This document shows, in pieces, positions 43,707 through 64,000 of a DNA stretch of 64,000 nt. Position 1 is the first letter of the stretch. The number at the start of each line of letters is the position of its first letter. The stretch is taken from positions 1 through 64,000 of the forward strand of contig JANXLV010000288.1 in NCBI GenBank assembly GCA_025355005.1, read 5' to 3'. The position numbers and the translations under genes were made by a program. The stretch comes from Myxococcales bacterium. GTDB lineage: Bacteria > Myxococcota_A > Polyangia > Polyangiales > Polyangiaceae. Below the pieces are notes generated by a model that was not told the origin of the DNA, did not search any database, and saw nothing but the letters and a program-made list of their open reading frames with translations.

Positions 43707-44189
43707 TCAGCGCTTGGCGAGCTCGGTCACGATGAACGCGCGGGCCTTTCGCCAGTCCCGGCGCACCGTGCGCACGTCCACGTCGAGCGCGGATGCGATC
43801 TCTTCTTCGGCGAGACCCGCAAAGAATCGCCACTCCACCACCGTCGCGAGCCGCTCATCCAGGGCGGCGAGGCACGTGATGATCTCGTCGATGGCAAGCA
43901 GCTCCTCGACGTGCGTTTCCTGTCCTACGCTGTCGAGCGACGACGAGGACGAGAACCACTGACCACGCTTCTGCGCCTTACGCTTGCGAGCATGATCGAT
44001 GATGATCTGCCGCATGGCCGTGGCGGCCACCGCAAAGAAGTGTCCCCGATCGTTATACGCACCCGATCCGCGTGAGAGCTTCAGCCATGCCTCGTGCACC
44101 AGCGCGGTGGTGTTGAGCGTGTTCCCGCCGCTTCGCGAGAGGTGGCGATGGGCGAGCACACGCAAGGCGTCGTAGATCGTGTTGTCCAT
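43707..44189 (-). CDS. ECF sigma factor (kinase-linked type)
   Basis: A 160-residue sigma factor with both regions. Region 2 contains NTTALVHEAWLKLSRGSG, the LVHEAYLRL hallmark of the kinase-associated ECF group, and FFAVAATAMRQIIIDHARKR. Region 4 contains LATVVEWRFFAGLAEEEIAS and VDVRTVRRDWRKAR, the -35 binding helix-turn-helix. No anti-sigma gene is adjacent. The TPR kinase downstream is the probable regulator. Confidence 0.9.
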   Translation of the reverse strand: MDNTIYDALRVLAHRHLSRSGGNTLNTTALVHEAWLKLSRGSGAYNDRGHFFAVAATAMRQIIIDHARKRKAQKRGQWFSSSSSLDSVGQETHVEELLAIDEIITCLAALDERLATVVEWRFFAGLAEEEIASALDVDVRTVRRDWRKARAFIVTELAKR

Positions 44190-46875: not shown

Positions 46876-46956
46876 TCACAGCTTCTTGATATCCACCCTG
46901 GCGCGCCCCGGCCACTTCTTTCGTGCGGACATCGCGAACCCCACACCCGCGGTCAT
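46876..46956 (-). CDS. 26-residue ORF overlapping the cheB-like stop
   Basis: MTAGVGFAMSARKKWPGRAR and six more residues, strongly basic. Its ATG overlaps the TGA of the cheB-like gene (ATGA), the same arrangement used by the upstream genes, and its first four residues repeat those of the cheB-like protein. It may be a coupled small protein or the stub of a deleted next gene. Confidence 0.3.
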   Translation of the reverse strand: MTAGVGFAMSARKKWPGRARVDIKKL

Positions 46957-48041
46957 TCAGGGCGCAACGGCGGGCGGGTGGAGCGCTCTTGCTCCGTGGA
47001 GACTCGCGCGACCAGGTAGTCCGCGATGAGCTCCGCTGCGAGCGCGCGATCCACGGCTCCGGCTGCGACCGCCGCGTTCGGCATCTCGTTCGGCATCGCG
47101 CTGCCGGAAGACTCCGCGATCGTGAGGCCACCGCGATCGTGCAGGCTCGAGAGTCCCTTCACGCCGTCGCTGCCGCAGCCAGACACCAGCACGCCGATCG
47201 CGCGCGAGCCATAGACCTCCGCGACGGACGCGAACAACCTGTCGGCCGAAGGCCTGCGCGCCTGGATCGGCGCCTCCTCCACGGCGGCGAACATGCGGTC
47301 GCCCGTGCACACCAGATGCGCATCGCGGCCCACGATGCAAATCTCGCCCGCGCTGCACTCGTGCGGCTCCGTGACGGCCACGATCTTCAGCGTCGTGAGC
47401 GAGCGTAGGTAGCGCGCGTAGGCCGGCGAAAACTGTGGCGGCAGATGCTGGGCGATCACGACGGGCACCCGGAAATTCGCAGGCAAACGCTGCAGGATCG
47501 CGGCCACCGCGCGAGGCCCGCCAGCGCCCGCGGCGATCGCGACCAGCTCGAGCGGCCGCGCGCGCAATGCTGCGGAGCCCGCAGCGGGCGGCGGCACGGA
47601 GGAGAGCGGCCAGAGGCCAGCGAGATGCGTGAACACGGGCACGGCCGAGAGCTGCCGCACGCTGGCCCGCAGCTCCGCCGCAGCGACCTCGTCGAACACG
47701 CTCGGCTTCGGCGTGAAATCGAGCGCGCCGCATGCGATGGCGCGGAACCCAAGGTCCGAGCCGGGACCAAGACGTTCGCCCGTGACGACCAGAATGGGCA
47801 CCGCGCACTTACCCATCACGTTCTGGATCGCCTCCAGGCCGCCCATTTGCGGCATGTCGATATCCATCGTCACGAGGTCGGGCTTGTGAAGAAGCACCGC
47901 TTGCACCGCCTCGTTCCCGTCGGCCGCCTCCCCCACGACCTGGATGTCGCCCTCCATCTCGAGCAGCTGCTTGAGGACTGCGCGCGCGAGGGCCGAGTCG
48001 TCCACGACAAGGACACGAACGAGGCCCTTCCCAGCGGTCAT
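46953..48041 (-). CDS. CheB-like response regulator without the catalytic serine
   Basis: A 362-residue protein: receiver domain (VLVVDDSALAR, acceptor D60 in LVTMDIDMPQMGG, PKPS), linker, then a CheB methylesterase fold. In CheB the nucleophile lies in IGASTGGP. Here the same strand reads IAAGAGGP, with Gly172 in place of Ser. The catalytic His (VIAQHLPPQF, H199) and Asp (GCGSDGVKG, D292) are kept. Glutamyl-methylesterase activity is therefore not expected. It overlaps the CheA-like gene by four bases, so phosphotransfer from that kinase to D60 is likely. No CheR or chemoreceptor is nearby. A role as a phosphorylation-dependent binding protein is inferred. Confidence 0.85.
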   Translation of the reverse strand: MTAGKGLVRVLVVDDSALARAVLKQLLEMEGDIQVVGEAADGNEAVQAVLLHKPDLVTMDIDMPQMGGLEAIQNVMGKCAVPILVVTGERLGPGSDLGFRAIACGALDFTPKPSVFDEVAAAELRASVRQLSAVPVFTHLAGLWPLSSVPPPAAGSAALRARPLELVAIAAGAGGPRAVAAILQRLPANFRVPVVIAQHLPPQFSPAYARYLRSLTTLKIVAVTEPHECSAGEICIVGRDAHLVCTGDRMFAAVEEAPIQARRPSADRLFASVAEVYGSRAIGVLVSGCGSDGVKGLSSLHDRGGLTIAESSGSAMPNEMPNAAVAAGAVDRALAAELIADYLVARVSTEQERSTRPPLRPE

Positions 48042-49582
48042 TGGGCCTTCTCCATGTTCCCGCTCGGGCGAAGGAGCTCTGGGCGAATCAGAACAGCCTC
48101 GGTGCCGTCGACGCGCACGACCTCTGCGCGCTCGTGGTCTGCAGTGCGGCAGAGTCTCTCGGCCGCGTGTAGCGTAACGGCGCTGCAGACCGTCAGCGCA
48201 AACGATTCCGCTCCACGCGTGAGGCTCAAGATCCGCGTCGCCGGGTCGGGGTCTCCGCCGCCGTTTGTTGCAGGTATGTCAAGCGCACCAAGGACATCCG
48301 TGTGAGCCACCGGAATCCGCGCGCCCGCTGGCTCGAGTGTCGCGCTCCATTCCGCGCTCGCGGCGAGAGTCACGCTGCTGCCCGGGACGCGAAACGTATG
48401 CACCATCACATGCTCTCCTGCGCTGGGCACGCGCACCACGAAGGTCGTACCGCTGCCCTTGGCCGTCGCGCCCACGCTCACCGCTCCGCCTCGCTCTTCC
48501 AGCACTGCTCGAACGGCGTCCAGGCCAATGCCTCGACCCGATCGCTGCGTGACCACGGTGGACGTGGAGAAGCTGGGCTCGAACAGGAGCTCCAGGAGCT
48601 CCTGCTCTGTCAGTGCCGCACATTCTTCTGGCGTGCGCGCGCCCTTTTCTTTTGCGACGCTTCGAAGCCGATCGAAGTCGATCCCGACTCCATCATCCGC
48701 CACCGTGAGCTCCAGGAACGCGCCGCGATCCGTGGCGACGACAGCGATGGTTCCCCCTGCGGCCTTCCCGGCCTCTGCCCTGCGCGCAGGAGTTTCGATC
48801 GCGTGGTCGGTCGCGTTCGTGAGCAGGTGCATCAAGGCCACATCCAGCGCATTCGCAGCTTCGGGTGTGGCCGTCAGGTCACCGCACGAGACGGTCACGT
48901 TGACCTCTTTCCCCAGGGCGCGAGCCAGCGCCGCGGACGCGTCGGCACGCCGATGAAGGCGCGGCTGAAGCCGCACTGCGGTGACGTTCGCCACGATCGA
49001 ACGCAACATCAACCACGTGACCTCGAGTCGGTCGCGCGCCGGCCCCTCCATCGCGCAGGCGCGCTCCAGGAACACGTTCGTCGCGGCCGCCGTGAGCATC
49101 TCGCGGCTCGAGTCACTCAGCTGGTCCAGGCGGTGTCCGCCCGAAGCGCTGCGAGGGCTACTTCGAAGCGCCGCTCCGCGCTCTGCGTCGATGCGCGCGT
49201 CCCGTTGAACCTCGCGGAGCTCACTCAAGAATCCTTTCAGATCGATTCCCGCCGTCGACACTCCCGGCGCGCTCATGAGCAGCATCGTGAGAAAATGCAG
49301 GCCCATCACCATCATCACGTCCACGGACTGCGGAAACGAGAACCCGCTGCCGATCGCGAACTCGAGCAGATCTTCGAGCTCGTGCGCCAGGAGGTCTACC
49401 TCCGCAAACCCGGTGACGTGGGCGTCGCCCTTGAGAGTGTGCAGGTCGCGGCGTACCTCCGCGATCGTGGTGCTCCGCTCGCGACGCTCCATCAGCGCCT
49501 GCCAGCCGGCCTCGATGCGCTCCACCCTCTCGGATGAGACGCAACGAAAACGGGCCACTAGCTCCTCGGGTAAGCTGGGCAT
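48038..49582 (-). CDS. CheA-like histidine kinase, copy 1 (514 aa)
   Basis: Domains in order: HPt with the phosphorylated His in LHTLKGDAHVTGF (H48), a helical region that may act as the dimer domain (about 160-220), an HATPase with N box LLTNATDHAIE, G1 VADDGVGIDF and G2 SGRGIGLDAV, then a diverged C-terminal domain where CheA has its CheW-like module. The CheY/CheB-docking P2 domain is not evident. It lies 1 base from the STAS gene upstream and overlaps cheB. The kinase at 55827 has the same length and plan. Together they suggest a two-kinase circuit, not classical chemotaxis. Confidence 0.85.
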   Translation of the reverse strand: MPSLPEELVARFRCVSSERVERIEAGWQALMERRERSTTIAEVRRDLHTLKGDAHVTGFAEVDLLAHELEDLLEFAIGSGFSFPQSVDVMMVMGLHFLTMLLMSAPGVSTAGIDLKGFLSELREVQRDARIDAERGAALRSSPRSASGGHRLDQLSDSSREMLTAAATNVFLERACAMEGPARDRLEVTWLMLRSIVANVTAVRLQPRLHRRADASAALARALGKEVNVTVSCGDLTATPEAANALDVALMHLLTNATDHAIETPARRAEAGKAAGGTIAVVATDRGAFLELTVADDGVGIDFDRLRSVAKEKGARTPEECAALTEQELLELLFEPSFSTSTVVTQRSGRGIGLDAVRAVLEERGGAVSVGATAKGSGTTFVVRVPSAGEHVMVHTFRVPGSSVTLAASAEWSATLEPAGARIPVAHTDVLGALDIPATNGGGDPDPATRILSLTRGAESFALTVCSAVTLHAAERLCRTADHERAEVVRVDGTEAVLIRPELLRPSGNMEKAQ

Positions 49583-49960
49583 CTATGTCTCGATGGTCAC
49601 GACGTCGACGGCGAAGCACTTCAGCGCATGCAAGCTACGACGCTGCCAGGTCTGCTTCTCGCTGGTCCGAATCCGGATCGTGTACGCCGACGCCTCCGGC
49701 AGGAGGCGCACGCGGTGCACCCAGGCGATCAGCTTCGCGAAGCACGAGGAGTTGATGAACCCGAGCTGCGTGAAGTCGAGCAGCACCGTCTTGTGATGCG
49801 CGGCGAGGACATGGTCGTGCAGCTGTGAAAGCAGCGACTCCAACGCGGCGAGCGCCAGCGCATCCGCCGTTCCGCTGAGGCTCATCGTGGTCATGACAGC
49901 GTCCGTCGTGCTCGAAGCGCTGAATGTTTCGAGATTGAGTTGGAGATCTGCCGTGCTCAC
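49583..49960 (-). CDS. STAS-domain anti-sigma-antagonist-like protein, copy 1
   Basis: A 125-residue STAS protein of the SpoIIAA/RsbV type. The loop that carries the regulated serine reads QLGFINSSCFAKLI (S71/S72), where Cys replaces the usual Gly. The C-terminus has a WQRRSLHALKCFA motif shared by the two other STAS proteins here. Its gene overlaps the SpoIIE phosphatase gene (ATGA) and abuts the CheA-like gene. The phosphatase would be expected to dephosphorylate it. Its partner may be one of the RsbW-like ATPases encoded on the other strand. Confidence 0.8.
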   Translation of the reverse strand: MSTADLQLNLETFSASSTTDAVMTTMSLSGTADALALAALESLLSQLHDHVLAAHHKTVLLDFTQLGFINSSCFAKLIAWVHRVRLLPEASAYTIRIRTSEKQTWQRRSLHALKCFAVDVVTIET

Positions 49961-51429
49961 GTGTCCTCTTGTTTTTCTGGTCTTTTGCGCGTGATGGCGA
50001 GCACGATGACGTCATCGTCCGGAGCGCGCGGTGAAAGGTACGCGAGCAGACGCTGGTGAAGGGCGGCGGCAGGCTTCTCGCAGCGAGCGCTGTCCGCAAG
50101 GGCGCGTCGCATGGGTTCGCCACCGAACGGCGTGGGCGTCCCCGCCTCCTCGACTCCGTCCGTGAGCAAGAAGAGCGTCTCGCCGGGCGAAAGCTGCGCC
50201 GTCGTATCTGTGAACGTCGGCACGACGCTGCTCCCCAAGAAAGAGCCCGTCGCTTCGATCTCGCGCACCGCGCCTTCGGTGACCAGGACGGGGGGTGGAT
50301 GAGCGCCGCACGCGAACGTCACCGCGCCCGTCTCCGCGGATACGTCCATGATGCACGCCGTGAAGACGATCGCGAGCTCGGGGTACGTGCTGGCGATGCG
50401 ATCGTTGAGCAGCTTCATCGCGTGCGCGGGCGTCGCAGCGGACAGCTTGATCGCCTCGTATTCGCACCGCACCAGGATGGTGACGAGCGCGGCACGGACG
50501 CCATGCCCGGTTGCGTCTCCCACAAGCACGCGCATCCCGCCGGGGATGCTCGCGGCGTCGTAGAAGTCACCGCCAATGCGGTCCACCGGGCGAAACACCA
50601 CGTCGAGCGCGAAGCCCTTGGGCGGATCGTACGATGGCAGCATCGCCTCCTGGAAAGCGCGAGAGTCCTCCATGTCACGCATCACGCGTGCGTCGCGCTC
50701 CGCCAGCAACACCTGCACCGTGACGTCTCGCAAGAATACGAGCGCGCCGATGCGGCCACGGAGCGGCGCCGAGAGCGGCGTCACGCGGACCTGCAGCGTG
50801 CGCCCATGGTGCGTGGCCTGCTCCGTGAGCTCGACGTCGTCATCGGTCCGAACGCTCAAGTAGCTCGCGAGGCGCCGAAATACCGCTGCCGGCAGGAGCT
50901 CGCGCAGCGGGAGCCCAGTCACCGCGTCCTCCGTCACAGCGATCCCGCGCGCATTCGTCACCCGCAAGAGCTCGAAGAATTGCGCGTTGTGGCGCAGGAG
51001 CTGATTGTCCGCGTCCAGCACCGCGACGCCATCCTCACTGTGCCTGAGGACGCTCGTGAAGTAGTGGTCACCCCGCGACATGCGGTCGAGCAGGTCCGCG
51101 TCCCCCTGCAGGCGTTCGACGAGCGCGAAGAAGCCTTCGCTGTCGCGTGACAAGCGGATGCGGGTGCGGTGGTCAATGGTCCCCACGCGAAGGCCTACCG
51201 ATTGATCGATGACCGCATGAGGCGCTTCGTCGGAGACCGCGCCGCCGCTGATCGCCTTGGAGAGCGCGAGCGCGCCGCGCCGATCGCGCGGGCTCAAGAG
51301 ATCATCGAGCGCACGACCGACGACGTCCGACTCCTGGCACGAGAGCAGGGAGCAGAACGTCTGGTCTGCCGACACCACGATGAGCTGCAACGAGAGCCGG
51401 AGCAGACCGATTCCGAAGCGGTTCATCAT
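49957..51429 (-). CDS. PAS-SpoIIE (RsbU-like) protein phosphatase
   Basis: A 490-residue protein from MMNRFGIGLL. An upstream open frame to 51687 overlaps the previous gene and is not used. It has an N-terminal regulatory region, a PAS-like domain (about 165-285, HSEDGVAVLDADNQLLRHNA), a helical linker with RVMRDMEDSRAFQEAMLP, then a PP2C-type SpoIIE domain with metal-binding motifs RIGGDFYDA, GDATGHGVRAAL and LFLLTDGVEEA. Family enzymes dephosphorylate STAS antagonists, and the STAS gene follows directly with a four-base overlap. The stop of the gene before it also overlaps its start. Confidence 0.9.
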   Translation of the reverse strand: MMNRFGIGLLRLSLQLIVVSADQTFCSLLSCQESDVVGRALDDLLSPRDRRGALALSKAISGGAVSDEAPHAVIDQSVGLRVGTIDHRTRIRLSRDSEGFFALVERLQGDADLLDRMSRGDHYFTSVLRHSEDGVAVLDADNQLLRHNAQFFELLRVTNARGIAVTEDAVTGLPLRELLPAAVFRRLASYLSVRTDDDVELTEQATHHGRTLQVRVTPLSAPLRGRIGALVFLRDVTVQVLLAERDARVMRDMEDSRAFQEAMLPSYDPPKGFALDVVFRPVDRIGGDFYDAASIPGGMRVLVGDATGHGVRAALVTILVRCEYEAIKLSAATPAHAMKLLNDRIASTYPELAIVFTACIMDVSAETGAVTFACGAHPPPVLVTEGAVREIEATGSFLGSSVVPTFTDTTAQLSPGETLFLLTDGVEEAGTPTPFGGEPMRRALADSARCEKPAAALHQRLLAYLSPRAPDDDVIVLAITRKRPEKQEDT

Positions 51430-51716
51430 GGGCTTCGCTCCTCCTCCGAAAATCCCACCAGCACGTGGAACGCAGCGACGTCCGCGGCCTTGCACGCGCG
51501 CTTGCGAAACACGGTGATGGGATTGCCGAGCAGCGTGGAGCGGACGATGAGCGCGGGCGTCTCGATCTCGATTGTCTTCATCGTGTCGCTCCGCTTGATC
51601 TTGCCCATCGCGGCGGCGAGCCGCTCCCACACGAGTAACACCTCGTTGCGGTCGAAGAAGTACTTGAACGTCTCCTTGCGAGCGCACATGGGAACGAGCT
51701 CACGGTAAGGCCGCAA
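51426..51716 (-). CDS. Small unknown protein between V4R sensor and phosphatase
   Basis: A 96-residue protein (MRPYRELVPMCARKETFKYF) with a central KTIEIETPALIVRSTLLGNP segment. No signal peptide, membrane helix or known domain. It starts 3 bases after the V4R gene stop and overlaps the phosphatase start by four bases, so it is an integral part of the operon. It could be a connector between sensor and phosphatase (inference only). Confidence 0.6.
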   Translation of the reverse strand: MRPYRELVPMCARKETFKYFFDRNEVLLVWERLAAAMGKIKRSDTMKTIEIETPALIVRSTLLGNPITVFRKRACKAADVAAFHVLVGFSEEERSP

Positions 51717-51719
51717 AGC

Positions 51720-52910
51720 TCACAGCTTCTCGACCGTGAAGACGCAGGAGGCCTTTTCGCTGCACACACACTCGCTCTCCGCCGATCCGTAGGAGCCGAT
51801 ACGCTCCTCCACGGTCCCCTTGCCGAAGACAAGCGCCATGATGCCCGCCGCGACGCCGCAGAGCATGAGGCACTGTGGCGACTGGCTGGTCCCGCGCATC
51901 TCGCGGAAGCCGTACGCCTCGTAGCCGTTCAGCGACTCGATGCGGAGCACGCGGCCGGGCGCGAACGTGTCCACGTGCCAGTTGCCCCAGCCAAGCGCGT
52001 TGCTGACGGCGACGATGCCGAACAGGTTGTCGGACTCCTTTTCGATCATCGGCTGCACGAGCCCGGCCCATTCAGCAGAGCTCATGATGCCGCGGAACGT
52101 GTTCATCGCGCAGGTCTCTGCGTCCGACACGAGCAAGCGGCGCGCGGTCTTGCCGAGTCCGTGCTTCTCCATCTCTTCGATGAAGCGGATGCTCGCCAGG
52201 TTGTAGAAGTCCGCGGGTGTGTTTGCGAGGTATACGCCGAACGCCGGAATGAGCCCTTCGTCGTTGCCGTGAATGGGCATGCCGACGAGCGCGCTGACGA
52301 TCTTCGCTGCGTCGACGTTGGCCGGACTGTCGAAGGTCTTCTTCTTCTGCGTGTGCGCGAACGGCTGTTTGTGAATGCCGCGCACCGCGTCCTGGCGACC
52401 GTTGACGCGTTCGAAGCGACACGCCTTCGCGCCGGTGATCATGCACTCGCGCTCGACGAAATGGGCCGATTCACCCGTGACGGCGTGCAGCGCGCCTTGC
52501 AAGAATCCTTCGGTGAACGTGCACACGGGCGCCTTGCGTTGACCGAAGCCGGCGCTCCAACCCTCCACGAAGTGCGAGGCCGTCGCGGTCACGCCGCCGC
52601 CGTCGACAGAAGAGAGGTCGAGTCGGCCATAGCCGAGGTGCGCGTAGAGCGCGCCCGCGACCTGCCACTTCGTCGCCGTGTCGTCGGCCGGATCGAGCGC
52701 TGCCGTCACGTGCTCGGCGAAGGTCGATTCTGCGGCCTGCGAGAAGATCTTCTTTCCGTCGACCTGCGGCGTGCCTTCGATCGTGGATTGAATGCGCGAG
52801 TTGTAATGATGGCAGTGGAGAATGATCTCCTTGCCCGCGATGATCCGGCGGTACTGCTCCGGGTTGTATTTGAGCGCGAACCGCGATGCGATGGATGATG
52901 ACGATGACAT
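51720..52910 (-). CDS. V4R-domain putative sensor, two copies of the domain
   Basis: A 396-residue protein starting [21 protein letters not shown] first V4R (4-vinyl-reductase) domain ends with the typical CTFTEGFLQGALHAVTGESA and VERECMITGAKACRFE, containing the two conserved Cys. The C-terminal half repeats the pattern (CLMLCGVAAGIMALVFGKGT, then SECVCSEKASCVF). V4R domains bind small hydrophobic molecules or use Cys residues for metal or redox sensing. It is first in the operon that goes on to the phosphatase, STAS, CheA-like and CheB-like proteins, so it is the probable input. A longer frame from 52955 lacks a better start. Confidence 0.75.
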   Translation of the reverse strand: MSSSSSIASRFALKYNPEQYRRIIAGKEIILHCHHYNSRIQSTIEGTPQVDGKKIFSQAAESTFAEHVTAALDPADDTATKWQVAGALYAHLGYGRLDLSSVDGGGVTATASHFVEGWSAGFGQRKAPVCTFTEGFLQGALHAVTGESAHFVERECMITGAKACRFERVNGRQDAVRGIHKQPFAHTQKKKTFDSPANVDAAKIVSALVGMPIHGNDEGLIPAFGVYLANTPADFYNLASIRFIEEMEKHGLGKTARRLLVSDAETCAMNTFRGIMSSAEWAGLVQPMIEKESDNLFGIVAVSNALGWGNWHVDTFAPGRVLRIESLNGYEAYGFREMRGTSQSPQCLMLCGVAAGIMALVFGKGTVEERIGSYGSAESECVCSEKASCVFTVEKL

Positions 52911-53159
52911 GTGGCCTCCCCGGGAACGAGTCGTGGATGCTGGCGCAGCGGCCAATCGTCTCTCGTGATCGCGAGCCGCGCAAGGCGGAACCCGCGCATC
53001 ACGCCGCGCTCATGCGCAGACACGCAGGTGCAGGTCGAGCGGCGGGCGGCGAGCGGCGAGCGGCGACCAGACTTACGCACCAGCCCCCACTGGCTTCCAG
53101 AGTTACCACCGCTGCACGCCGTTCCGAAAGAATGCAACGTGCGGTATCGTGCCGGGAGG
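52911..53159. promoter_or_regulatory. Divergent promoter region of the two signalling operons
   Basis: About 250 bases separate the divergent V4R and kinase-receiver genes, so promoters in both directions are expected. At 53037-53066 there are four imperfect copies of a 7-base unit (AGCGGCG/GGCGGCG). I see no clear -35/-10 or sigma-54 element. Confidence 0.4.
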
Positions 53160-54940: not shown

Positions 54941-55438
54941 ATGAAACAGGACAAGCTAGCAGCGTATTTCGAGCTGCGCTTCAGACCAAACGTGGAGTTG
55001 GTCTCCGTCGTGCGACGGTTCGTGTCTGCTTTCTACGAACGCATCGTTCATGATCTGGATGTCACCGAGCGGCTTGCGATGGTGACTCACGAGCTACTCG
55101 AGAACGCGGTGAAGTACTCCTCGGACGGTGAGACGTTGCTCTCGATCGAGGTCGAGCAGGTGGGCGGTCCGCGCAACGTCCTCGTGCGCACCAAGAACCG
55201 CACGACCGCCGAGAACCGGAAGATCGTCACGGAGGCATTCAACGAAGCGAACGCGGCCAAAGACACGTTCTCTCATTACCAGGAGCTGATGAAGAGAGCT
55301 TCCACCCGAACCGAAGGCTCGGGGCTCGGCCTTGGACGCATCCGTGCGGAGGCAGACATGTCCGTCGCGTACGCGATCGATGGTGAAGAGCTGACCGTCG
55401 ACGCGCGCACGACCATCCCCGCGGCGGTGGCATCATGA
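54941..55438 (+). CDS. RsbW-like ATPase, copy 1
   Basis: A 165-residue GHKL ATPase of the anti-sigma/HATPase_c_2 type: N box VTHELLENAVKYS and G2-type loop GSGLGLGRIRAEADM. RsbW/SpoIIAB proteins phosphorylate STAS partners on Ser and bind either the STAS protein or a target. The STAS gene follows with a four-base overlap. The classical G1 DxGxG motif is weak, so kinase activity is less certain than binding. No sigma factor gene is adjacent, so its target is unknown. Confidence 0.8.
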   Translation: MKQDKLAAYFELRFRPNVELVSVVRRFVSAFYERIVHDLDVTERLAMVTHELLENAVKYSSDGETLLSIEVEQVGGPRNVLVRTKNRTTAENRKIVTEAFNEANAAKDTFSHYQELMKRASTRTEGSGLGLGRIRAEADMSVAYAIDGEELTVDARTTIPAAVAS

Positions 55439-55830
55439 GCAACACTGGCGCGAGCGCGAACCAAGCGCTCGACGTGGACGTCGGCACGTTCTCCGCGACT
55501 CAGAAGCTCAACGGCACCACCATGCAGCTGGTGTTCACGGGCGAAGCAGACGCGGCCGCGCTGACTCTCATGGAGACCTTCCTCCTCGGCATTCATTCGC
55601 TCGCGCAGGACAATGGAGTCAAAGAGGTCGCGCTTGACCTTCGCAAGGTGAGCTTCATGAGCTCGTCGTGCTTCACCAAGATGATCGGGTGGGTCACCCG
55701 GGTCCGCGAGGTGCCCGAACCGGGGCGGTACCGGATTCGCATTCAATCGAGCCAGTCGTCACTCTGGCAGCGAAGGAGCTTGCACGCGCTGCAGTGCTTC
55801 GCCACGGAGCTGATCACGATCGAGTCGTGA
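55435..55830 (+). CDS. STAS-domain protein, copy 2
   Basis: A 131-residue STAS protein. The regulated-serine loop reads KVSFMSSSCFTKMIGW, with the same Cys in place of Gly as in the minus-strand copy, and it shares the WQRRSLHALQCFA ending. It is sandwiched between the RsbW-like and CheA-like genes with overlapping codons on both sides. Expected to be phosphorylated by RsbW and reset by the SpoIIE phosphatase encoded at 49957-51429. Confidence 0.8.
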   Translation: MSNTGASANQALDVDVGTFSATQKLNGTTMQLVFTGEADAAALTLMETFLLGIHSLAQDNGVKEVALDLRKVSFMSSSCFTKMIGWVTRVREVPEPGRYRIRIQSSQSSLWQRRSLHALQCFATELITIES

Positions 55831-57371
55831 GCGTGACCGTCCCTCTGCCCGCAACGATCATCACGCGGTTTCGCACGTCGTCGGCAGAGAAGGTCGAACG
55901 CGTCGAGACCGCGTGGCTCGGCCTGCTCGAAGGTCGGGCCGAGACCTCGGAGGCAGCGCTCGTCCGCAGGCATTTGCACACGCTCAAGGGCGACGCTCGC
56001 ATGGTGGGCTTTCCGGAGGTGAGCCTGCTCTGCCACCGACTGGAGGATCTGTTCGACGTCGCCGAGACGCGGCTCTTCCAGGTTCCGGAGACGGTCGACC
56101 TGATGATGACGATGGGCATGCGCTTCATCGCGATGCTGATCATGAACAAGCCGGGCGCGGCACCGGCCGGCGTCGACCTCGACGGGTTCATCCGCGAGCT
56201 GGACTCCGTCCTCATCGAAGCCCGCCAGTCAATGCACCCAGGCGTGGACTCGGAGGCCCGCATCTCCCTCGTCGGAGAATGCGAGCGCCCGAATCGGCTG
56301 AACGGGCGCGCACGCGACCGCCTGGGCACCGCCGCCACGAAGGTGTTCCTGGAGGCCGAGAGCGCGACAGGGGCCACGCGCGAGCGCCTGCGCGAGGCAT
56401 GGACCGCGCTCTCCGAGACCGTGATGGATGCGACCGCGGTGCCCGTTGATGACATCGTCGAGCGGCACGTGCGCGCTGCGAAGGAGCTGTCCTACTCTCT
56501 CTGCAAGGAGGTACATGTCGAGCTTGTCTCGCGCAGCGGACTCCGGGTGACGCCAGAGGTGGCGGAGGCCGTGGACACGGCGCTGCTCCACCTGGTTCGC
56601 AACGCGATCGATCACGGCATCGAACCCGCCGGCGATCGCCAGCGCAAGCAAAAGGCCGCCACGGCGCGTCTGATCATCAAAGTCTCGGAGATGAATGACG
56701 GCGATGACGACGCGGAGCTCTCTGTCTCCGACGACGGCCGCGGCATCGACTGGCCTCGCGTCCGACTGCTCGCGGTGGAGCGCGGCATCCTGAGCGCCGC
56801 CGCCGCGAAGGACGCGAGCACCGCGGAGCTGGGTGAGCTTCTCTTCCAGCAAGGCTTCTCCACGGCCGACGTGGTGACGGACGTCTCGGGTCGCGGCGTG
56901 GGCCTCGATGCAGTCAAGGTGGTGGTCGAACAGGCCGGCGGAGGCATCACCCTCGAATCGACTCCGGACCGCGGCACGGTGGCACGCGTTACGTTTCCGC
57001 ATGCGCACTCGCGCAAGGCGGTGCGTCGCCTTTCGATCGCGGGATCGCCGTTGCCGATCGTGGTGGAGGCCTCCTGGCGGATCGGCCGGGACGTCGCAGA
57101 GCCACGCGTCGACGACCCGCTCGTGCAGGATGTTCTCGATGCCCTCGGGCTGCGTGGCAACACAGAGATGAGCGATGCGAGCACCATCCTGCTCGAGCGA
57201 GGCCGTGAGCGCGTGTGGATCCGTCAGTGCCGTCACGTGGGCGACGCCGTCGCAGAGCGAGTCTGTGCGACACCCGCGTCCGAGCTAGCGGAGATCGTCC
57301 AGGTGGACTCCACGGAATGCGTGCTCGTGAGGCCAGAACATCTCGGCGTGCGCCGTCTCCCGTCGCCATGA
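55827..57371 (+). CDS. CheA-like histidine kinase, copy 2 (514 aa)
   Basis: Same length and domain order as the minus-strand copy at 48038-49582: HPt with LHTLKGDARMVGF (H51), a helical region, an HATPase with HLVRNAIDHGIE, SVSDDGRGIDWPRV and SGRGVGLDAVK, then a diverged C-terminal domain ending in a VQVDSTECVLVRPEHL segment that parallels VRVDGTEAVLIRPELL in copy 1. The GTG start overlaps the STAS stop (GTGA). A GTG two codons later is an alternative. No receiver gene follows directly. The receiver of the Ser/Thr kinase at 53160 and the CheB-like protein are possible phosphate acceptors. Confidence 0.85.
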   Translation: MSVTVPLPATIITRFRTSSAEKVERVETAWLGLLEGRAETSEAALVRRHLHTLKGDARMVGFPEVSLLCHRLEDLFDVAETRLFQVPETVDLMMTMGMRFIAMLIMNKPGAAPAGVDLDGFIRELDSVLIEARQSMHPGVDSEARISLVGECERPNRLNGRARDRLGTAATKVFLEAESATGATRERLREAWTALSETVMDATAVPVDDIVERHVRAAKELSYSLCKEVHVELVSRSGLRVTPEVAEAVDTALLHLVRNAIDHGIEPAGDRQRKQKAATARLIIKVSEMNDGDDDAELSVSDDGRGIDWPRVRLLAVERGILSAAAAKDASTAELGELLFQQGFSTADVVTDVSGRGVGLDAVKVVVEQAGGGITLESTPDRGTVARVTFPHAHSRKAVRRLSIAGSPLPIVVEASWRIGRDVAEPRVDDPLVQDVLDALGLRGNTEMSDASTILLERGRERVWIRQCRHVGDAVAERVCATPASELAEIVQVDSTECVLVRPEHLGVRRLPSP

Positions 57372-57567: not shown

Positions 57568-58032
57568 TTGCAGTTCGAGCTGACATTTCAACCGACGATA
57601 CCGCTCGTAACGGTTATTCGTCGCACCGTCACGTCCATCTTCGATCGCGTCCTTGGTGATCGCGAACGCAGCGCCCGACTCGCGCTCGCCACGCACGAGC
57701 TCCTCGAGAACGTTGTGCGGCATTCGACGGACGGTCAGACAACGCTCCAGATCCACTCCAGCGAAGACACACGCGGACGCGTGACGATCGAAACGCGCAA
57801 CAAGGCGCGGCGCGAAGACATCACCGACCTCACGGCGCAAGCGCTGGCGATGGCGACCGCGGATCCGGAGGTCTTCTATCTGGAGCTGATGGTCGAGCGC
57901 GCCGACAGCGCCGACGACGGCGGCCTTGGTATCGCGCGCATCCGCGCAGAAGCCGACATGCTGGTCGACGTATATGACGAGGGCGAGTACGTCCGCATCG
58001 TCGCGAGCATGCCGCTCTCGGATGCCGCATGA
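57568..58032 (+). CDS. RsbW-like ATPase, copy 2
   Basis: A 154-residue GHKL protein starting at a TTG behind AGGTAGGGA. No in-frame ATG precedes the conserved part. N box ATHELLENVVRHS is intact. The later GLGIARIRAEADM matches the end of copy 1, but the glycine-rich ATP lid is reduced, so nucleotide hydrolysis is doubtful. It overlaps the following STAS gene by four bases, forming a second switch pair. Confidence 0.8.
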   Translation: MQFELTFQPTIPLVTVIRRTVTSIFDRVLGDRERSARLALATHELLENVVRHSTDGQTTLQIHSSEDTRGRVTIETRNKARREDITDLTAQALAMATADPEVFYLELMVERADSADDGGLGIARIRAEADMLVDVYDEGEYVRIVASMPLSDAA

Positions 58033-58424
58033 GCATCGCGACGCTCACGCAGAACGAGGGCGCGTTCACCACGAAGTCCCAGAAGGACGCGGACGTCATC
58101 ACCGTGCGCTTCTCCGGAGAGGTCGACCTCGAATCGATCGACGCGCTCCAGCGCATCCTCATCGGCGCCCACGAGATCGCGCTCGCCGAGCACGCGAAGC
58201 AGGTGATCATTGATCTCACGCAACTGGAGTTCATGAACTCCTCCGGCGTGAAGCATTTCGTCACCTGGCTTCGCAGCGCCAGCCAGCTGCCCGATGCCAC
58301 TTCCTACAAGATCCGGCTCGTCGCCAGCAAGACCATCCCCTGGCAGAAGCGCAGTCTCGCGGCGCTGAGGACGTTCGCCGTGTCGATCGTCAGCATCGTT
58401 CACGAAGATGGCGCGGAGGCCTGA
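58029..58424 (+). CDS. STAS-domain protein, copy 3
   Basis: A 131-residue STAS protein with the more canonical loop QLEFMNSSGVKHF (S71/S72, Gly kept) and the shared ending WQKRSLAALRTFA. It is cotranslated with the second RsbW-like ATPase. The next gene, a secreted peroxidase, starts 22 bases later on the same strand, so this pair could control or report on that gene set. Confidence 0.8.
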   Translation: MSIATLTQNEGAFTTKSQKDADVITVRFSGEVDLESIDALQRILIGAHEIALAEHAKQVIIDLTQLEFMNSSGVKHFVTWLRSASQLPDATSYKIRLVASKTIPWQKRSLAALRTFAVSIVSIVHEDGAEA

Positions 58425-58446
58425 GACCTCCGTGGAGCCGCGGCGG

Positions 58447-59781
58447 ATGACGTTCGGGTATGCGGGAATGCTCGGGACCGGGCTCGTCATCCTTGCGGCA
58501 GCATGTAGCGACAGCGCGGGCGGCGACGTCACGTTCACCGGAAGTGAGCGCGCCACGATCGGTGCGCTGTCGCCTCTGGCCGCGGTCGAATCCGACCCCA
58601 CGAACAAGTACGCCGCGAACGCCGCGGCTGCCGCGTTCGGGCAAAAGCTCTTCTTCGACACCAGGTTCTCCGGAACGATCCTGGCGGCGGGAGCTCTGTC
58701 CAGCGGCAACGGCGGCCTTGGACAGATCGGCGACACGGGCAAGATCTCGTGCGCGAGCTGCCACCAGCCGGACGCGACTTTTCAAGACGTTCGCTCCGTG
58801 CCCAACTCGTGCACGGTGGCCGCGGGCTGGACTCTGCGCAACACGCCGCCGCTCGTGAATGCTGCATTCTACAAGTGGTTCTTCTGGGACGGTCGCGCAG
58901 ATGCGCTCTGGGTCCAGGCGCTTCTGCCGGTCGAGGCGAACGGAGAGATGAACTCGAGCCGCCTGCACGTCGCCCACGCGCTCTACGCGAACTACAAGGC
59001 CGAGTACAACGCGCTCTTCGATCCAGACCTCGATCCGGGCCTGGATCCTGCGTCAGCGACGGCGAAACAATTCCCCGACTCGCTGAAGCCCCCGAGCGAT
59101 CCGCAGAGCCCATGGAACACCATGAAGCCGGCGGACCAGGACGTGGTGAACCGCATCTTCGCGAATTTCGGCAAGGCACTTGCCGCGTACGAGACGCTGC
59201 TGGTTGCCCGAAATTCTCCCTTCGATCGCTACGTGGCCGGGGATGAGGCGGCCATGAACACCCAGGCCAAGCTTGGTCTACGGCTCTTCATCGGGAAGGC
59301 CGCCTGCGTCGTATGCCACGCGGGCCCGCTCCTCAGCGACAACAAGTTTCACAACACTGGCGTCGTGCAGCATCAGGGTGATCTCACGCACGTCCCGACG
59401 TCCGACCAGGGGCGCTTCGCGGGGATCCCGCAGCTCACGGCGAACGCCTTGAATGGCTCCGGCGCTTATAGCGATAGCCCCAAGGACGGCAAGGCGAGCG
59501 GCCTCGTCGCAACGGACGCGGACCGCGGCGCGTTCCGCACGAAGGGACTCCGCGAAGTAGCGATGACGGGTCCGTACATGCACGGCGGCCAGATCGCCAC
59601 TCTCGAAGACGTCATTGACCACTACGATCGCGGCGGTGGTGCCGCCGGAGCCTTCGAGGGAACGAAGGATCCGCTGATGGTGCCGCTCAACCTGACCGCC
59701 TCGGAAAAGACGCAGCTAGTGGAGTTCCTGCATGCGCTGACCGGAGAAGCAGTGCCGGCAGCCCTCACCAGAGGTCCATGA
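58447..59781 (+). CDS. MauG/CcpA-type dihaem cytochrome c peroxidase lipoprotein
   Basis: A 444-residue protein with a lipoprotein signal (lipobox AAAC) and two haem c sites: CASCH at about residue 102 and CVVCH at about 287. Family segments include FGQKLFFDTRFSG, the second-domain LRLFIGKAAC, and FRTKGLREVAMTGPYMHGG with the distal Met. It would reduce H2O2 or oxidise a protein substrate outside the cytoplasm. An in-frame ATG at 58408, inside the STAS gene, is an alternative start, but GTGGAG precedes the one used. The stop overlaps the porin start (ATGA). Confidence 0.9.
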   Translation: MTFGYAGMLGTGLVILAAACSDSAGGDVTFTGSERATIGALSPLAAVESDPTNKYAANAAAAAFGQKLFFDTRFSGTILAAGALSSGNGGLGQIGDTGKISCASCHQPDATFQDVRSVPNSCTVAAGWTLRNTPPLVNAAFYKWFFWDGRADALWVQALLPVEANGEMNSSRLHVAHALYANYKAEYNALFDPDLDPGLDPASATAKQFPDSLKPPSDPQSPWNTMKPADQDVVNRIFANFGKALAAYETLLVARNSPFDRYVAGDEAAMNTQAKLGLRLFIGKAACVVCHAGPLLSDNKFHNTGVVQHQGDLTHVPTSDQGRFAGIPQLTANALNGSGAYSDSPKDGKASGLVATDADRGAFRTKGLREVAMTGPYMHGGQIATLEDVIDHYDRGGGAAGAFEGTKDPLMVPLNLTASEKTQLVEFLHALTGEAVPAALTRGP

Positions 59782-61319
59782 GTGAGCCCGCGGCCAAGCG
59801 AGGCCCCGTCGCGCGACTCGCCACGATGATCATGAACCGCCATGTGGCGTTCGTCGTCGCGTTTGCCCTGACGTCGCTGGCGTCCACGCGCGCATGGGCG
59901 CAGGTCGCACAGGACCCCGGCGACGCCGGAGCACCCACCGCCGGTGGCGCCGGCCCGAGCCCCACTCAGCCGCCGCCATCCGCGGGAGCAGAGCCAGCCG
60001 CCCCGACCCAGGAGACGCGGCTGCGTGAGCTCGAGGCCGAGTCGCGTCGCCTTCGCCAGGAGCTCGATGAGCTGAAGGAGGACCACAAGTCCACGTCCGA
60101 TCGCGTCGACAAGCTTCTTCCGATCGCGAACAAGTTCACCGGCTATATCGACTTCGGGTTCTTCGGTACCACGGGGAACGGCGCCGGGATCCGCAACGAC
60201 ACCGACTATGCCTACTTCCCCGAATATCGAACCAGCGGAATTGCCGGCCAGTGGGTCTTCTATGGCGATCCGCTTGCGACAATGGTGAATGCCCGGGGTG
60301 AGCCCGCCGATACAGGCCCGTCGCGCGCGCTCACGTTCGATCCGATCCACAACGGCGGCAAGCCATCGTTCATCGTCAACAGCATCGATCTAGCGCTGTT
60401 CCATGCGGTGAACGAATCACTCACCTTCAACGCGGCCGTCGACTTCATCCCCCGCACCCGCAACGTGTCCATCCGTGGCCAGAACTCGAAGGACCTGCCT
60501 GGCCTCGGCGATTTCCTGGACGTGAAGCTTGGATATGCAGAGTACATCGTTCCTACGCAGGGCTGGTCGCTCAGCCTCTTCGCGGGCAAGTTCGATTCGG
60601 TGCTCGGCGTGGAGTACCGCACGCAAGACGCGCCAGACAGGCTCGCCGTCACGCCCTCGCTCATCTGCCGCTACACGTGCGGCCGCCCGCTGGGGCTGAA
60701 GGCACGCGCTCGCTTCCTGGACGACCGGCTCGCGCTCAACGTGTCCGTCGCGAACGGCAGCAACTTCGTGGAGCTGTTTCCGTTCTACAACGAGATCGAT
60801 TCCAACAACGTCAAGACCGTGTCCGGCCGCGTCTCCTACGATCTTCACATCGGCAAGCGGTTCGAAGCGGGGTTCTCTGGCGCGTATGGCGCACAGGACC
60901 TGCAGAGCGATGACGGCGTGCCTCAATGGCAAACCGGCGCGGATCTCTCGATCGACTGGAAGGACATCGTCCTGACAGCGGAGTGGGTGCACGGTATCGC
61001 GCAGGGCGCCGCCAACATCGGCGACCCTCCGTGCGCGACGGCACCGTGTCTGCACTTCACCGGGGCCTACGCACAGCTCGGGTACCGTGTGCTGAACTGG
61101 CTCACGCCGTATACGCGCGTCGACACACGAGACGCGTTCCATCGAGACGGCACCAGCTTCGTCTATATTTCACAGCTGATGCGGGTGACAGGCGGTGCGC
61201 ATTTCGAGGTCGGAACGAACGTCGTGGTGAAGGCGGAATACACACACGTGCAGCAGCTTGGACGCGCGCCGCAGTTTCCAAACGACGTGGCAACCAGCTC
61301 ACTCGTGCTGAAGTTTTGA
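59778..61319 (+). CDS. Outer-membrane beta-barrel protein with N-terminal coiled coil
   Basis: A 513-residue protein: signal peptide (hydrophobic VVAFALTSLASTRAWA), Pro/Ala linker, coiled coil (LRELEAESRRLRQELDELKE), then about 400 residues of alternating strands from NKFTGYIDFGFFG to the terminal TSSLVLKF with an aromatic C-terminus. This is a porin plan similar to Gram-negative phosphate-porin or OprO-type and electron-conduit barrels. Translation is coupled to the peroxidase gene. It may give peroxide or metal substrates access to, or dock, the cytochromes (inference). Confidence 0.8.
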   Translation: MSEPAAKRGPVARLATMIMNRHVAFVVAFALTSLASTRAWAQVAQDPGDAGAPTAGGAGPSPTQPPPSAGAEPAAPTQETRLRELEAESRRLRQELDELKEDHKSTSDRVDKLLPIANKFTGYIDFGFFGTTGNGAGIRNDTDYAYFPEYRTSGIAGQWVFYGDPLATMVNARGEPADTGPSRALTFDPIHNGGKPSFIVNSIDLALFHAVNESLTFNAAVDFIPRTRNVSIRGQNSKDLPGLGDFLDVKLGYAEYIVPTQGWSLSLFAGKFDSVLGVEYRTQDAPDRLAVTPSLICRYTCGRPLGLKARARFLDDRLALNVSVANGSNFVELFPFYNEIDSNNVKTVSGRVSYDLHIGKRFEAGFSGAYGAQDLQSDDGVPQWQTGADLSIDWKDIVLTAEWVHGIAQGAANIGDPPCATAPCLHFTGAYAQLGYRVLNWLTPYTRVDTRDAFHRDGTSFVYISQLMRVTGGAHFEVGTNVVVKAEYTHVQQLGRAPQFPNDVATSSLVLKF

Positions 61320-61329
61320 GGGCATTTCA

Positions 61330-61998
61330 ATGAAGCGAAAGCACGCATTTCTGGGCTTCACGACGCTGGCGCTGATCACGTTGGGACCGGATGACGCATG
61401 GTCGGAGCCATCTGGGACCGTGACGGGCACGGTGACCCTCACAAAGGGGGGCGCTGCACGACCAAGCTCCGGCGGCGTCGTGATCTACATCGAGAGCGCG
61501 CCCGTGACTGGTGCGGCGCGCAGGCATGCGATTCACCAGAAGGAGCTACAGTTCGATCCTCCCGTCAACGTGGTGATGAAGGGAACGACGGTCGACTTCC
61601 CGAACGACGACCGCGTATTCCACAACGTGTTCTCCGTCTCCCAGCCAGCGCGCTTCGACCTGGGGCTCTACAAGGCGGGCGAGAGCAAGTCCGTGGTGTT
61701 CAATCGCACTGGCGTCGTCGACATCTATTGCAACATCCACCCGGACATGGCGTCCAAGGTGAAGGTCGTCGACACTCCCTACTTCGCCATGACGCGCGCG
61801 GATGGCACCTTCGAGATCGGAGGGGTTCCTCCGGGCACCTATCCGATCGTCGCCTGGCAGGCATTTGGAGAGGAGTGGCGCGGACAGGTGATCGTCACTG
61901 CCGGCGGCCGAGCCACGGTCACGACCAAGCTGGAGGAGGGCCAGAGGCAGCAACGTCACGTCCGCAAGGACGGTACGCCGTACGGCCGTTACCAGTGA
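61330..61998 (+). CDS. Periplasmic cupredoxin-like protein with a carboxypeptidase-regulatory-like domain
   Basis: A 222-residue exported protein (signal peptide cleaved near AWS). It starts with a beta-sandwich segment (GTVTGTVTLTKGGAARPSSG). The blue-copper ligands are visible as RVFHNVFS (His), and C-x2-H-x2-M in DIYCNIHPDMAS. The remainder (DGTFEIGGVPPGTYPIVAWQ) is a CarboxypepD_reg-like turn. It would carry one electron between the peroxidase and the multihaem cytochrome. It starts 10 bases after the barrel gene and overlaps the next gene by four bases. Confidence 0.85.
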   Translation: MKRKHAFLGFTTLALITLGPDDAWSEPSGTVTGTVTLTKGGAARPSSGGVVIYIESAPVTGAARRHAIHQKELQFDPPVNVVMKGTTVDFPNDDRVFHNVFSVSQPARFDLGLYKAGESKSVVFNRTGVVDIYCNIHPDMASKVKVVDTPYFAMTRADGTFEIGGVPPGTYPIVAWQAFGEEWRGQVIVTAGGRATVTTKLEEGQRQQRHVRKDGTPYGRYQ

Positions 61999-63197
61999 TC
62001 CGTGCGTCTCCGACCCTGCTCATCTTGCTGCTCGCAACTGGATGTACGAAGCCCGCAAAGAAGGAGGTCGCAGCGGTGTCCGTGGATGCCGCGGGGGCGT
62101 CCGCGGAGCATTTCGCGTTTCCGTCCCATCGCTGCGGAGAGTGCCACGGCGACATCGAGTCGAGCTGGCGACCGTCTGCGCATGCGCGTGCAGTCACCAC
62201 TCCGTTGTTCACGAAGATGCGTGACGCTGCGGGTCATGGCGCCGACTGCGACGGATGTCATGCCCCTCTGCGCGCGAAGATCCCCGCGGACGATCCCGCG
62301 GCGGCCGACGGCGTCGGCTGCGACTCCTGCCACCTGATGACAGACATGACGCCGCGACGAGAGGGAAAAGGGTTCACGCTGCGTGTGGACGACACGACCC
62401 GCTATGGCCCGCTCTGCGACGCGCAGAACCACTACTTCCACAAGATGGGTTGCTCGCCCGGGCATGCGCAATCCAAGCAATGCGCTTCGTGTCACCTTCT
62501 CTACGGTGCCGGCGCCATTCCTCTCTTCACGGAGTACGAAGAGTGGGAGCGCAGCCGATACGCGAGTAGCCACGAGTGCCAGGACTGCCACATGGCCTCT
62601 CGCCAGGCGGCGCTGGCCGTTGGCGCGAAGGGCACACGGCGCCTCGCGCGGCATGACTTCGCCCTGGACGAGATGAGCGGTGACGCAATCAAGGTAACGC
62701 TGGGAGTCGAAACCCAAGGGGACGAGCTCGCGGCCGTGGTGACGATGCTGAACGAAGGCGCTGGTCACTCGGTGCCCACTGGGCTGCCGGAGCACCGCCT
62801 GGTCCTCGCGGTTTCACGGAGCGATGCGAGCGGCGCGAACGTCCAGCGGTGGGAGCGCGTCTACGGTCGCGTCCTGGTGGATGGCGACGGAAAGCCGGCG
62901 CCCTTCTACCGCGCCGCGCGCGTGGAGAGCGACACGCGCATCGGCGTCGACGAATCACGCGTGGAGCGCTTCACGTTTCCGAAGGGAAAATCAGGGCGGA
63001 TCGACGTCAGCCTGACGTGGCTCCGCGTGCCGCAAGCCATGGCGCGTGAGCTCGGCGTGCCGGAAGATTCGCGCTCGCTCGCGAGCGGAGGGCAGAGCTT
63101 CGACTCCGCGCGCCTGCCCAAGCCCTTGCGCCTTCGGACCGAACCAGAGAAGGCGATCCGCGTGAACGCAACTGCCGACGGAGGGGCTCCTCATTGA
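61995..63197 (+). CDS. Pentahaem c-type cytochrome lipoprotein
   Basis: A 400-residue protein starting at a GTG overlapping the previous stop (GTGA), with lipobox ATGC. Five CXXCH motifs occur in the N-terminal half: CGECH, CDGCH, CDSCH, CASCH and CQDCH. An extra CSPGH lacks the second Cys and is not counted. This spacing resembles cytochrome c554/NrfB-type proteins. The C-terminal about 180 residues form a beta-rich domain with GHSVPTGLPEHRL, a segment that follows the haem region in many such cytochromes. It probably accepts electrons on the outside of the membrane, near the barrel. Confidence 0.85.
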   Translation: MIRASPTLLILLLATGCTKPAKKEVAAVSVDAAGASAEHFAFPSHRCGECHGDIESSWRPSAHARAVTTPLFTKMRDAAGHGADCDGCHAPLRAKIPADDPAAADGVGCDSCHLMTDMTPRREGKGFTLRVDDTTRYGPLCDAQNHYFHKMGCSPGHAQSKQCASCHLLYGAGAIPLFTEYEEWERSRYASSHECQDCHMASRQAALAVGAKGTRRLARHDFALDEMSGDAIKVTLGVETQGDELAAVVTMLNEGAGHSVPTGLPEHRLVLAVSRSDASGANVQRWERVYGRVLVDGDGKPAPFYRAARVESDTRIGVDESRVERFTFPKGKSGRIDVSLTWLRVPQAMARELGVPEDSRSLASGGQSFDSARLPKPLRLRTEPEKAIRVNATADGGAPH

Positions 63198-64000
63198 AAT
63201 TTCGCACCACGCTCCTCATCGCCGTTCTGTCGCTCGTGGTCGGACCGCTTCTTGCGACCGTGCTCGCGGTCTCCATCGTGATCGATCGCGCCGCGCGACG
63301 GGACGTGAGCGATGGACTTTCGCGCAGCCAGGACGTGTTCGTCGAGCAGCTGAAGCAACGCGAGGCGCTGCTCAGAACGGAGAGCCGCGTCGTCGCCGAA
63401 GAGCCACGCTTGAAGGCCGTGGCCGCGACAGAGGACGTCACGCACGAGACCGTGCTCGGCGTTGCGCAGGAATTGAAGCGAGCGCTGCAGAGCGACACGT
63501 TCCTGATGACGGACGAGAACGGGGTGCTCCTCGCCGACACCAGCGATGCGGCCGCCAGCGGCTTCGACATGTCGAAGCTCCCCATGATCGCGACGGCGCT
63601 CAGCAACGGCGAGGCCTCCCTGATCGTCACCGACCAGCTCGCCGGCAAGGAGAGCCTGATACAGATGCAGACGCGTCGGCTCGCGTTCGGCACCACGGTG
63701 GTGGGCGTTGTCGGAATCGGATACCGCTTCAACGACAAGGCAGCCGAGGCGGCGTCGCGGCAGTGCTCGAGCGGCGTGGCGATGCAGGTGGATGGGAAGA
63801 CCGTGGCCTTGTCCGGAGCGCCAGGTTCCCCGGCGGACGTGGACGCCGCGCTGGCGAGCGTGACACCAGGCGCGCCGACGGAGGTAACCCTCGGCGGACA
63901 GCGGTTTCTTGCGGTCGTCGCGCCCATGCCTGGTTATGTCGGTGCGCATCGTGTGCAGTATGCATTGATGCGGTCGCTGGAAGATGCCCTCGCGCCGAAG
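63194..64000 (+). CDS. Cache-type membrane sensor, 5' part
   Basis: The gene starts at a TTG overlapping the previous stop (TTGA) and runs off the window after 269 residues. A first transmembrane helix (TLLIAVLSLVVGPLLATVLA) is followed by a double-Cache-like extracytoplasmic domain (TFLMTDENGVLLADTSDAA, VVGVVGIGYRFND). The cytoplasmic output (kinase, cyclase or methyl-accepting) is beyond the edge. It would sense a ligand in the same compartment as the cytochromes encoded upstream. Confidence 0.7.
   Translation, partial: MKFRTTLLIAVLSLVVGPLLATVLAVSIVIDRAARRDVSDGLSRSQDVFVEQLKQREALLRTESRVVAEEPRLKAVAATEDVTHETVLGVAQELKRALQSDTFLMTDENGVLLADTSDAAASGFDMSKLPMIATALSNGEASLIVTDQLAGKESLIQMQTRRLAFGTTVVGVVGIGYRFNDKAAEAASRQCSSGVAMQVDGKTVALSGAPGSPADVDAALASVTPGAPTEVTLGGQRFLAVVAPMPGYVGAHRVQYALMRSLEDALAPK

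Follow-up and report, generated by a model that had tools for sequence, protein, structure and literature searches.

Partner switches of the RsbU-RsbV-RsbW and SpoIIE-SpoIIAA-SpoIIAB kind combine a SpoIIE-family phosphatase, a STAS protein with a conserved serine, and a GHKL kinase-like protein. All three are also encoded in a single operon at the end of the stretch of Myxococcales DNA analyzed here (the window: bases 1-64000 of contig C210, which is 71,209 bases long and belongs to an 8.68 Mb genome in 380 contigs). Unlike those systems, this operon has a membrane dCache-HAMP phosphatase, genes for secreted redox proteins, and an RsbW-like protein with a degenerate G-box, and no partner sigma factor was recognized within the operon or next to it. 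SiaABCD of Pseudomonas aeruginosa (PMC7647112) is alike in its membrane HAMP-PP2C phosphatase, small kinase, and antagonist-like target protein, but here the target is a STAS protein, no SiaD-like diguanylate cyclase (GGDEF protein) was recognized among the scanned cluster genes, and Sia as described has no secreted redox genes. The oxygen-sensing Vibrio stressosome resembles the operon as a partner-switch system that reads a redox-active cofactor or oxygen (PMC9237108). In sCache_heme domains (PMC12889525), a Cache domain reads a redox-active cofactor inside the sensor itself, whereas here the cofactor would sit in separate secreted proteins. Each of the closest described systems (RsbUVW, SiaABC, haem Cache, and the Vibrio stressosome) shares only one side of the operon. 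With slightly better than even confidence, we favor a reading in which a modular receptor takes its input from the secreted redox module and here feeds the partner switch.

Operon layout and partner-switch proteins

An earlier note, made from the letters of the window, had described an RsbW-like/STAS pair running directly into a secreted redox chain. Its gene coordinates, overlaps, and protein types were borne out by the open reading frame (ORF) list and by Pfam, where all seven identities exceed the curated cut-offs:

57568-58032, forward strand: RsbW-like kinase of the operon; TTG start; HATPase_c_2, 32.4 bits
58029-58424, forward strand: STAS antagonist; STAS (PF01740), 31.9 bits
58447-59781, forward strand: dihaem enzyme of the CCP/MauG family; CCP_MauG, 116.8 bits; lipoprotein-like N-terminus (LAAAC)
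59778-61319, forward strand: outer-membrane beta-barrel (BBP2) with an N-terminal coiled coil; BBP2, 34.5 bits
61330-61998, forward strand: secreted cupredoxin with a CarboxypepD_reg-like beta-sandwich and a C-terminal tail, HVRKDGTPYGRYQ; Copper-bind, 24.1 bits
61995-63197, forward strand: pentahaem c-type cytochrome, lipoprotein-like (LLATGC); GTG start; Cytochrome_C554, 31.3 bits
63194-64000 in the window (complete ORF 63194-64993), forward strand: receptor phosphatase, dCache_3-HAMP-SpoIIE; TTG start; dCache_3, 39.6 bits

The note had ended this series in a Cache sensor. The Cache domain is present, but the gene is truncated by the end of the window; reading on beyond base 64000, as the note had proposed, we found that the ORF continues to contig base 64993 and that the complete receptor, a dCache_3-HAMP-SpoIIE protein of 599 residues, gains a SpoIIE domain (PF07228, 119.1 bits) with the phosphatase aspartate motifs GGDYYDV, GDVAGHG, SDGLIEG, and DDD retained. 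By domain content, the receptor is a predicted RsbU-type phosphatase. Because the truncated last gene encodes a SpoIIE phosphatase, the operon holds a complete partner switch: the RsbW-like and STAS proteins before the secreted redox genes and the phosphatase after them.

In the RsbW-like protein, the N-box residues Glu44 and Asn48 are invariant, and in the STAS protein the invariant Ser71 (NSS motif) aligns with the phosphorylatable serine of anti-sigma antagonists, including TM1442. The best NCBIfam models for the two proteins are the slr1658/slr1659 regulator superfamilies, for which we found no described function; the scores of 33.2 bits (RsbW-like) and 55.5 bits (STAS) both lie under the 100-bit cut-off. 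The SiaA model likewise gave the receptor 71.7 bits against a cut-off of 700.

Adjacent genes overlap by 4 bases at the RsbW-like/STAS, dihaem/barrel, cupredoxin/cytochrome, and cytochrome/receptor junctions, and 10 bases separate barrel from cupredoxin. Between the STAS and dihaem genes the gap is 22 bases (starting from an alternative ATG at 58408 would give a 17-base overlap with STAS), and a comparably tight junction occurs in locus L066, where the dihaem ORF begins at 6970, after the end of the STAS gene at 6966. An active promoter or terminator at 58424-58447 was what the note had named as evidence for independent expression of the two parts; we found no promoter-like or terminator-like site there, as sigma-70 promoter and terminator scans scored no higher than shuffles, which alone is weak evidence. 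A short hairpin lies at 58414-58432, without a T-run, and an Rfam scan of the window gave zero matches.

Linkage of the cluster and exchanged receptor outputs

We searched 290 genomes of the window's class, Polyangia, for the cupredoxin and annotated the neighborhoods with purpose-built profiles. Cupredoxin and SpoIIE-type receptor occur together at 23 loci, nearly all ordered barrel-cupredoxin-cytochrome-receptor, and 20 of the 23 also have both an RsbW and a STAS gene (one of the three exceptions, G156a, ends at a contig edge). Named relatives with the cluster include Polyangium fumosum DSM 14668, Polyangium spp., and Paraliomyxa miuraensis, and in the last (G102) the full order of RsbW, STAS, dihaem enzyme, barrel, cupredoxin, cytochrome, and receptor is repeated. 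The RsbW/STAS pair precedes the redox genes in the window, G102, and G033, follows them in other lineages, and lies in the opposite orientation in G168b and G285; the linkage is therefore not a frozen gene order. The RsbW profile matches once in the 13.3 Mb of complete genome G188, directly beside the cluster, and the best RsbW match also adjoins the cluster in G240, G198, and G033. Both RsbW and all three STAS proteins of the subfamily in the window's genome fall inside the window. We conclude that the RsbW/STAS subfamily occurs almost exclusively at the cluster; the profiles, having been built from cluster members, show a dedicated subfamily and not an absence of other GHKL or STAS proteins. 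Given this restriction and the recurring linkage, we rejected chance adjacency of the switch and redox genes.

Beyond the Polyangia, the cupredoxin and receptor stay together while the output changes. A receptor-only search of Myxococcota outside the window's class gave four matches (G542, G697, G693, and G673), all four adjoining a cupredoxin, and the three that were scanned carry a cyclase (L205 and L206) or GGDEF-EAL (L207) output. Among 229 genomes of Gammaproteobacteria, 28 have a strong cupredoxin match, and a receptor of the same dCache subfamily is adjacent or within about 2 kb in 14 of the 16 loci fetched. Starting instead from the receptor (dCache alignment A6), we found 13 strong matches in 12 cupredoxin-bearing gammaproteobacterial genomes, all beside a cupredoxin, and one weak match elsewhere. 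Across all 229 genomes at E ≤ 1e-12, A6 gave 23 matches, of which 20 lie beside a cupredoxin, two do not, and one (L217) is at a contig edge; a cupredoxin thus adjoins 20 of the 22 decidable receptors, five of the 20 having been rows of A6 itself. No description of the cupredoxin-dCache pairing was found in the literature searched, a limited search that covered few subscription journals.

The exchanged outputs are diverse. In L063, the receptor slot holds a dCache-HAMP-Hpt-HATPase protein, and L049 and L059 have a kinase-FGE gene between receptor and STAS. L068 and L069 have a dCache protein with no output domain followed by a Ser/Thr kinase gene, where the dCache kinship comes from profile annotation and alignment (no Pfam match, or not scanned). 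The gammaproteobacterial receptors have a Ser/Thr kinase, a class III cyclase, GGDEF-EAL, or a histidine kinase as output. By locus, the receptor itself carries a Ser/Thr kinase (L185-L187), a cyclase (L188, L192, and L195, besides the two above), GGDEF-EAL (L190, L197, L199, L216, and L221, besides L207), or a histidine kinase (L198, and L174 of the Acidobacteriota, Bryobacterales). Two further kinds of gene accompany such pairs. DUF3034 proteins directly follow the cupredoxin-receptor pair in two gammaproteobacteria (L221:5351-6253 and L222:5283-6176; the GGDEF-EAL output was checked in L221 only), and in L188 (6970-8274) and L195 (12154-13455) the pair of cupredoxin and cyclase receptor is followed by a HAMP protein with one CXXCH, possibly a Cache protein that binds haem.

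The earlier note had suggested that peroxide, or electron flow across the outer membrane, is either controlled by the switch or reported to it. A functional link is supported, with the RsbW/STAS subfamily nearly restricted to the cluster and a linkage that survives reordering. Of the two directions, reporting to the switch is the better supported, because the pairing of cupredoxin and receptor holds from phylum to phylum despite different cytoplasmic outputs. In the opposite direction, the switch would regulate a redox chain (respiration, or peroxide or metal reduction), with the genes clustered for the sake of joint expression and a receptor that responds to something unrelated. The overlapping genes, the shared operon, and the lack of a detected internal promoter or terminator at the STAS-dihaem junction would agree with this. 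Against it, a phosphatase switch, a Ser/Thr kinase, cyclic nucleotides, cyclic di-GMP (c-di-GMP), and a histidine kinase would each have to control one effector beside the same receptor subfamily, and no DNA-binding regulator was recognized within the operon; we regard it as improbable. More broadly, and somewhat short of an even chance in our estimate, the dCache subfamily may be a cross-phylum class that uses a secreted blue-copper protein, usually together with an outer-membrane barrel, as a dedicated co-receptor, with the redox state of the carrier as the signal and freely swapped outputs (partner switching, c-di-GMP, cyclic nucleotides, Ser/Thr kinases, and histidine kinases).

The secreted redox proteins and the proposed receptor input

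The cupredoxin is the constant partner. Its type-1 copper ligands (His98, Cys134, His137, and Met140) are invariant across alignment A5, and its model (predicted local distance difference test, pLDDT, 90) has amicyanin and pseudoazurin as best structural matches, as expected of a cupredoxin. Receptor-linked cupredoxins carry an extra tail after the beta-sandwich, with HxRKDGTPYGRY in Polyangia and different sequences in other groups, while most paralogues with no linked receptor (compared in L041-L080 and L173-L200) end at the sandwich; exceptions exist, for example L072-L074, so we treat the association as a lead and not a rule. The tail is a candidate docking peptide. No cupredoxin relative was found on viral contigs.

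The cytochrome has five invariant CXXCH motifs and is related to ExtKL/MccSep of Geobacter-type clusters (PMC5877670), where the cytochrome is also encoded with a porin-like protein. Unlike those clusters, the operon has no Rieske, cytochrome b, or rhodanese genes, is linked to signaling genes, and has leucine for selenocysteine (the leucine of PTGLPEHR aligns with the selenocysteine of MccSep). We rejected ExtKL membership on present evidence, as the family score of 68.8 is below the cut-off of 250 and leucine replaces selenocysteine or cysteine. Around relatives of the cytochrome outside Myxococcota, the cluster is not present.

The dihaem enzyme, which the earlier note had called a peroxidase, does have two CXXCH motifs and belongs to the CCP/MauG family. 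The electron-transfer haem of the canonical peroxidase CcpA has a methionine axial ligand. In the dihaem enzyme, Tyr393, invariant in all 12 aligned cluster members, aligns instead with the axial Tyr294 of MauG, and on this basis we rejected a canonical peroxidase. Two haems and a tyrosine at the axial-ligand position are also the likeness to MauG and BthA; unlike MauG, the enzyme has no methylamine dehydrogenase or MbnP partner recognized in the operon, and it scores under the MbnH family cut-off and below that of the MauG model (TIGR03791, 164.6 bits against 443.85). Several clusters lack it or have it out of place, and it co-varies least with the other genes (distance correlations r 0.31-0.59). 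We conclude that it is an optional, MauG-like component, and the emphasis that the note had placed on peroxide is correspondingly weak.

For the barrel, structure prediction gives about 16-17 strands and a likeness to 16-stranded porins, for example OprP and PorB, but the confidence is low (mean pLDDT 62) and the model is too uncertain for claims about pore size. In porin-cytochrome conduits of the MtrCAB type, by comparison, a large barrel (26 strands in MtrB) surrounds a multihaem cytochrome. Electron flow across the outer membrane, as the note had envisaged, thus finds no support in a barrel that resembles ordinary porins at this low confidence. Four cysteines (motifs CRYTC and CATAPC) are invariant in 16 aligned relatives, which is unusual for a porin; they may form disulfides or a metal site.

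These properties bear on two alternatives. The barrel could import a small molecule that the copper and haem proteins oxidize or reduce, with dCache sensing the substrate or product and making no contact with a redox protein. Small-ligand binding is the generally assumed role of Cache domains (PMC12889525), the barrel model looks like a solute porin, and barrel-dCache distances give the strongest correlation of the redox-receptor pairs (r 0.92), but the constant partner is an electron carrier and not an oxidase, the enzymes (dihaem protein and cytochrome) are what varies, and the extra tail of receptor-linked cupredoxins suggests docking; we therefore consider such ligand supply unlikely, if still worth weighing. 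Alternatively, the cupredoxin could report periplasmic copper loading to the receptor, with electron flow secondary. The invariant copper ligands and the conserved cysteine pairs of the barrel, which could bind metal, would suit this, but no copper-export or resistance gene was recognized among the neighbors examined (most of them unidentified) and a pentahaem cytochrome would not be expected, leaving copper sensing very improbable.

We return to the redox module as receptor input. That the output varies among receptors which keep their extracytoplasmic partners argues for joint action of cupredoxin, barrel, and dCache on the periplasmic side. The module would consist of the secreted cupredoxin, the outer-membrane barrel, and, in this operon, the pentahaem cytochrome and the MauG-like dihaem enzyme. 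The receptor, in the inner membrane, would use its periplasmic dCache domain to read the state of the module, either as oxidized or reduced cupredoxin or as a product made there, probably by dCache-cupredoxin contact with the cupredoxin tail as the candidate docking element. HAMP would relay the signal to the SpoIIE phosphatase, which would remove phosphate from Ser71 of the STAS protein, and dephosphorylated STAS would then bind or release the RsbW-like kinase and a target, for which the neighboring Hpt-HATPase protein is the leading candidate. Computation supports the gene set and its conservation, the cross-phylum receptor-cupredoxin pairing, the exchanged outputs, and the retention of catalytic and metal-ligand residues. 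The redox nature of the signal, the direction of flow, any electron transfer among the proteins, their physical contact, phosphotransfer, and the target are inferred.

Several observations weigh against this reading. Gene linkage indicates a functional unit but neither physical contact nor the direction in which information flows. Having been derived from cupredoxin-linked receptors, the A6 profile favors recovering more of them, and two gammaproteobacterial receptors of the subfamily (L214 and L215) have no adjoining cupredoxin. The distance correlations still include species background. Alignments A6 and A9 revealed no conserved ligand for metal or haem in the dCache domain. Finally, neither the cytochrome nor the dihaem enzyme was found in the gammaproteobacterial loci, and electron flow as the signal therefore depends on the cupredoxin alone. 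Among solved structures, the dCache subfamily has a marginal match only (LuxQ, E 0.011).

Neighboring genes and implications

Directly upstream of the operon lie a second RsbW/STAS pair and the candidate target:

54941-55438, forward strand: upstream RsbW-like GHKL protein (second pair); Pfam; found with RsbW profile A2
55435-55830, forward strand: upstream STAS protein (second pair); no Pfam match at E 0.1; aligned in A3, with MSSS at the NSS motif
55830-57371, forward strand: Hpt-HATPase (CheA-like) protein; Pfam

A tree places the upstream RsbW with the RsbW proteins of the Polyangium and G240 clusters and the operon copy elsewhere; in Polyangium and G240, a relative of the Hpt-HATPase protein is encoded next to the cluster in divergent orientation. 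Back to back with this upstream cassette, a divergent arm on the minus strand (46953-52955; V4R protein, PAS-SpoIIE phosphatase, STAS, Hpt-HATPase, and CheB-like genes) forms a second partner-switch/CheA-like set. An ORF at 43707-44189 (minus strand), about 14 kb from the operon, resembles an ECF-type sigma factor by eye and is a conceivable but distant target. Past the window, HipA is split into two overlapping ORFs (HipA_C and Couple_hipA; L010:5625-6907, contig C210:69625-70907), which resembles the tripartite HipBST toxin-antitoxin arrangement.

If the cupredoxin is the receptor input, the pairing would provide a modular route by which redox conditions in the periplasm or at the cell surface reach nearly any cytoplasmic signaling system. 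It would give a function to a widespread cupredoxin group and to otherwise unexplained barrel-cupredoxin-sensor operons, and it would supply a signal for a Gram-negative partner switch, a type of system for which activating signals are often unknown. The recurrence of the pair with exchanged outputs suggests a little-known form of bacterial sensing of extracellular redox conditions.

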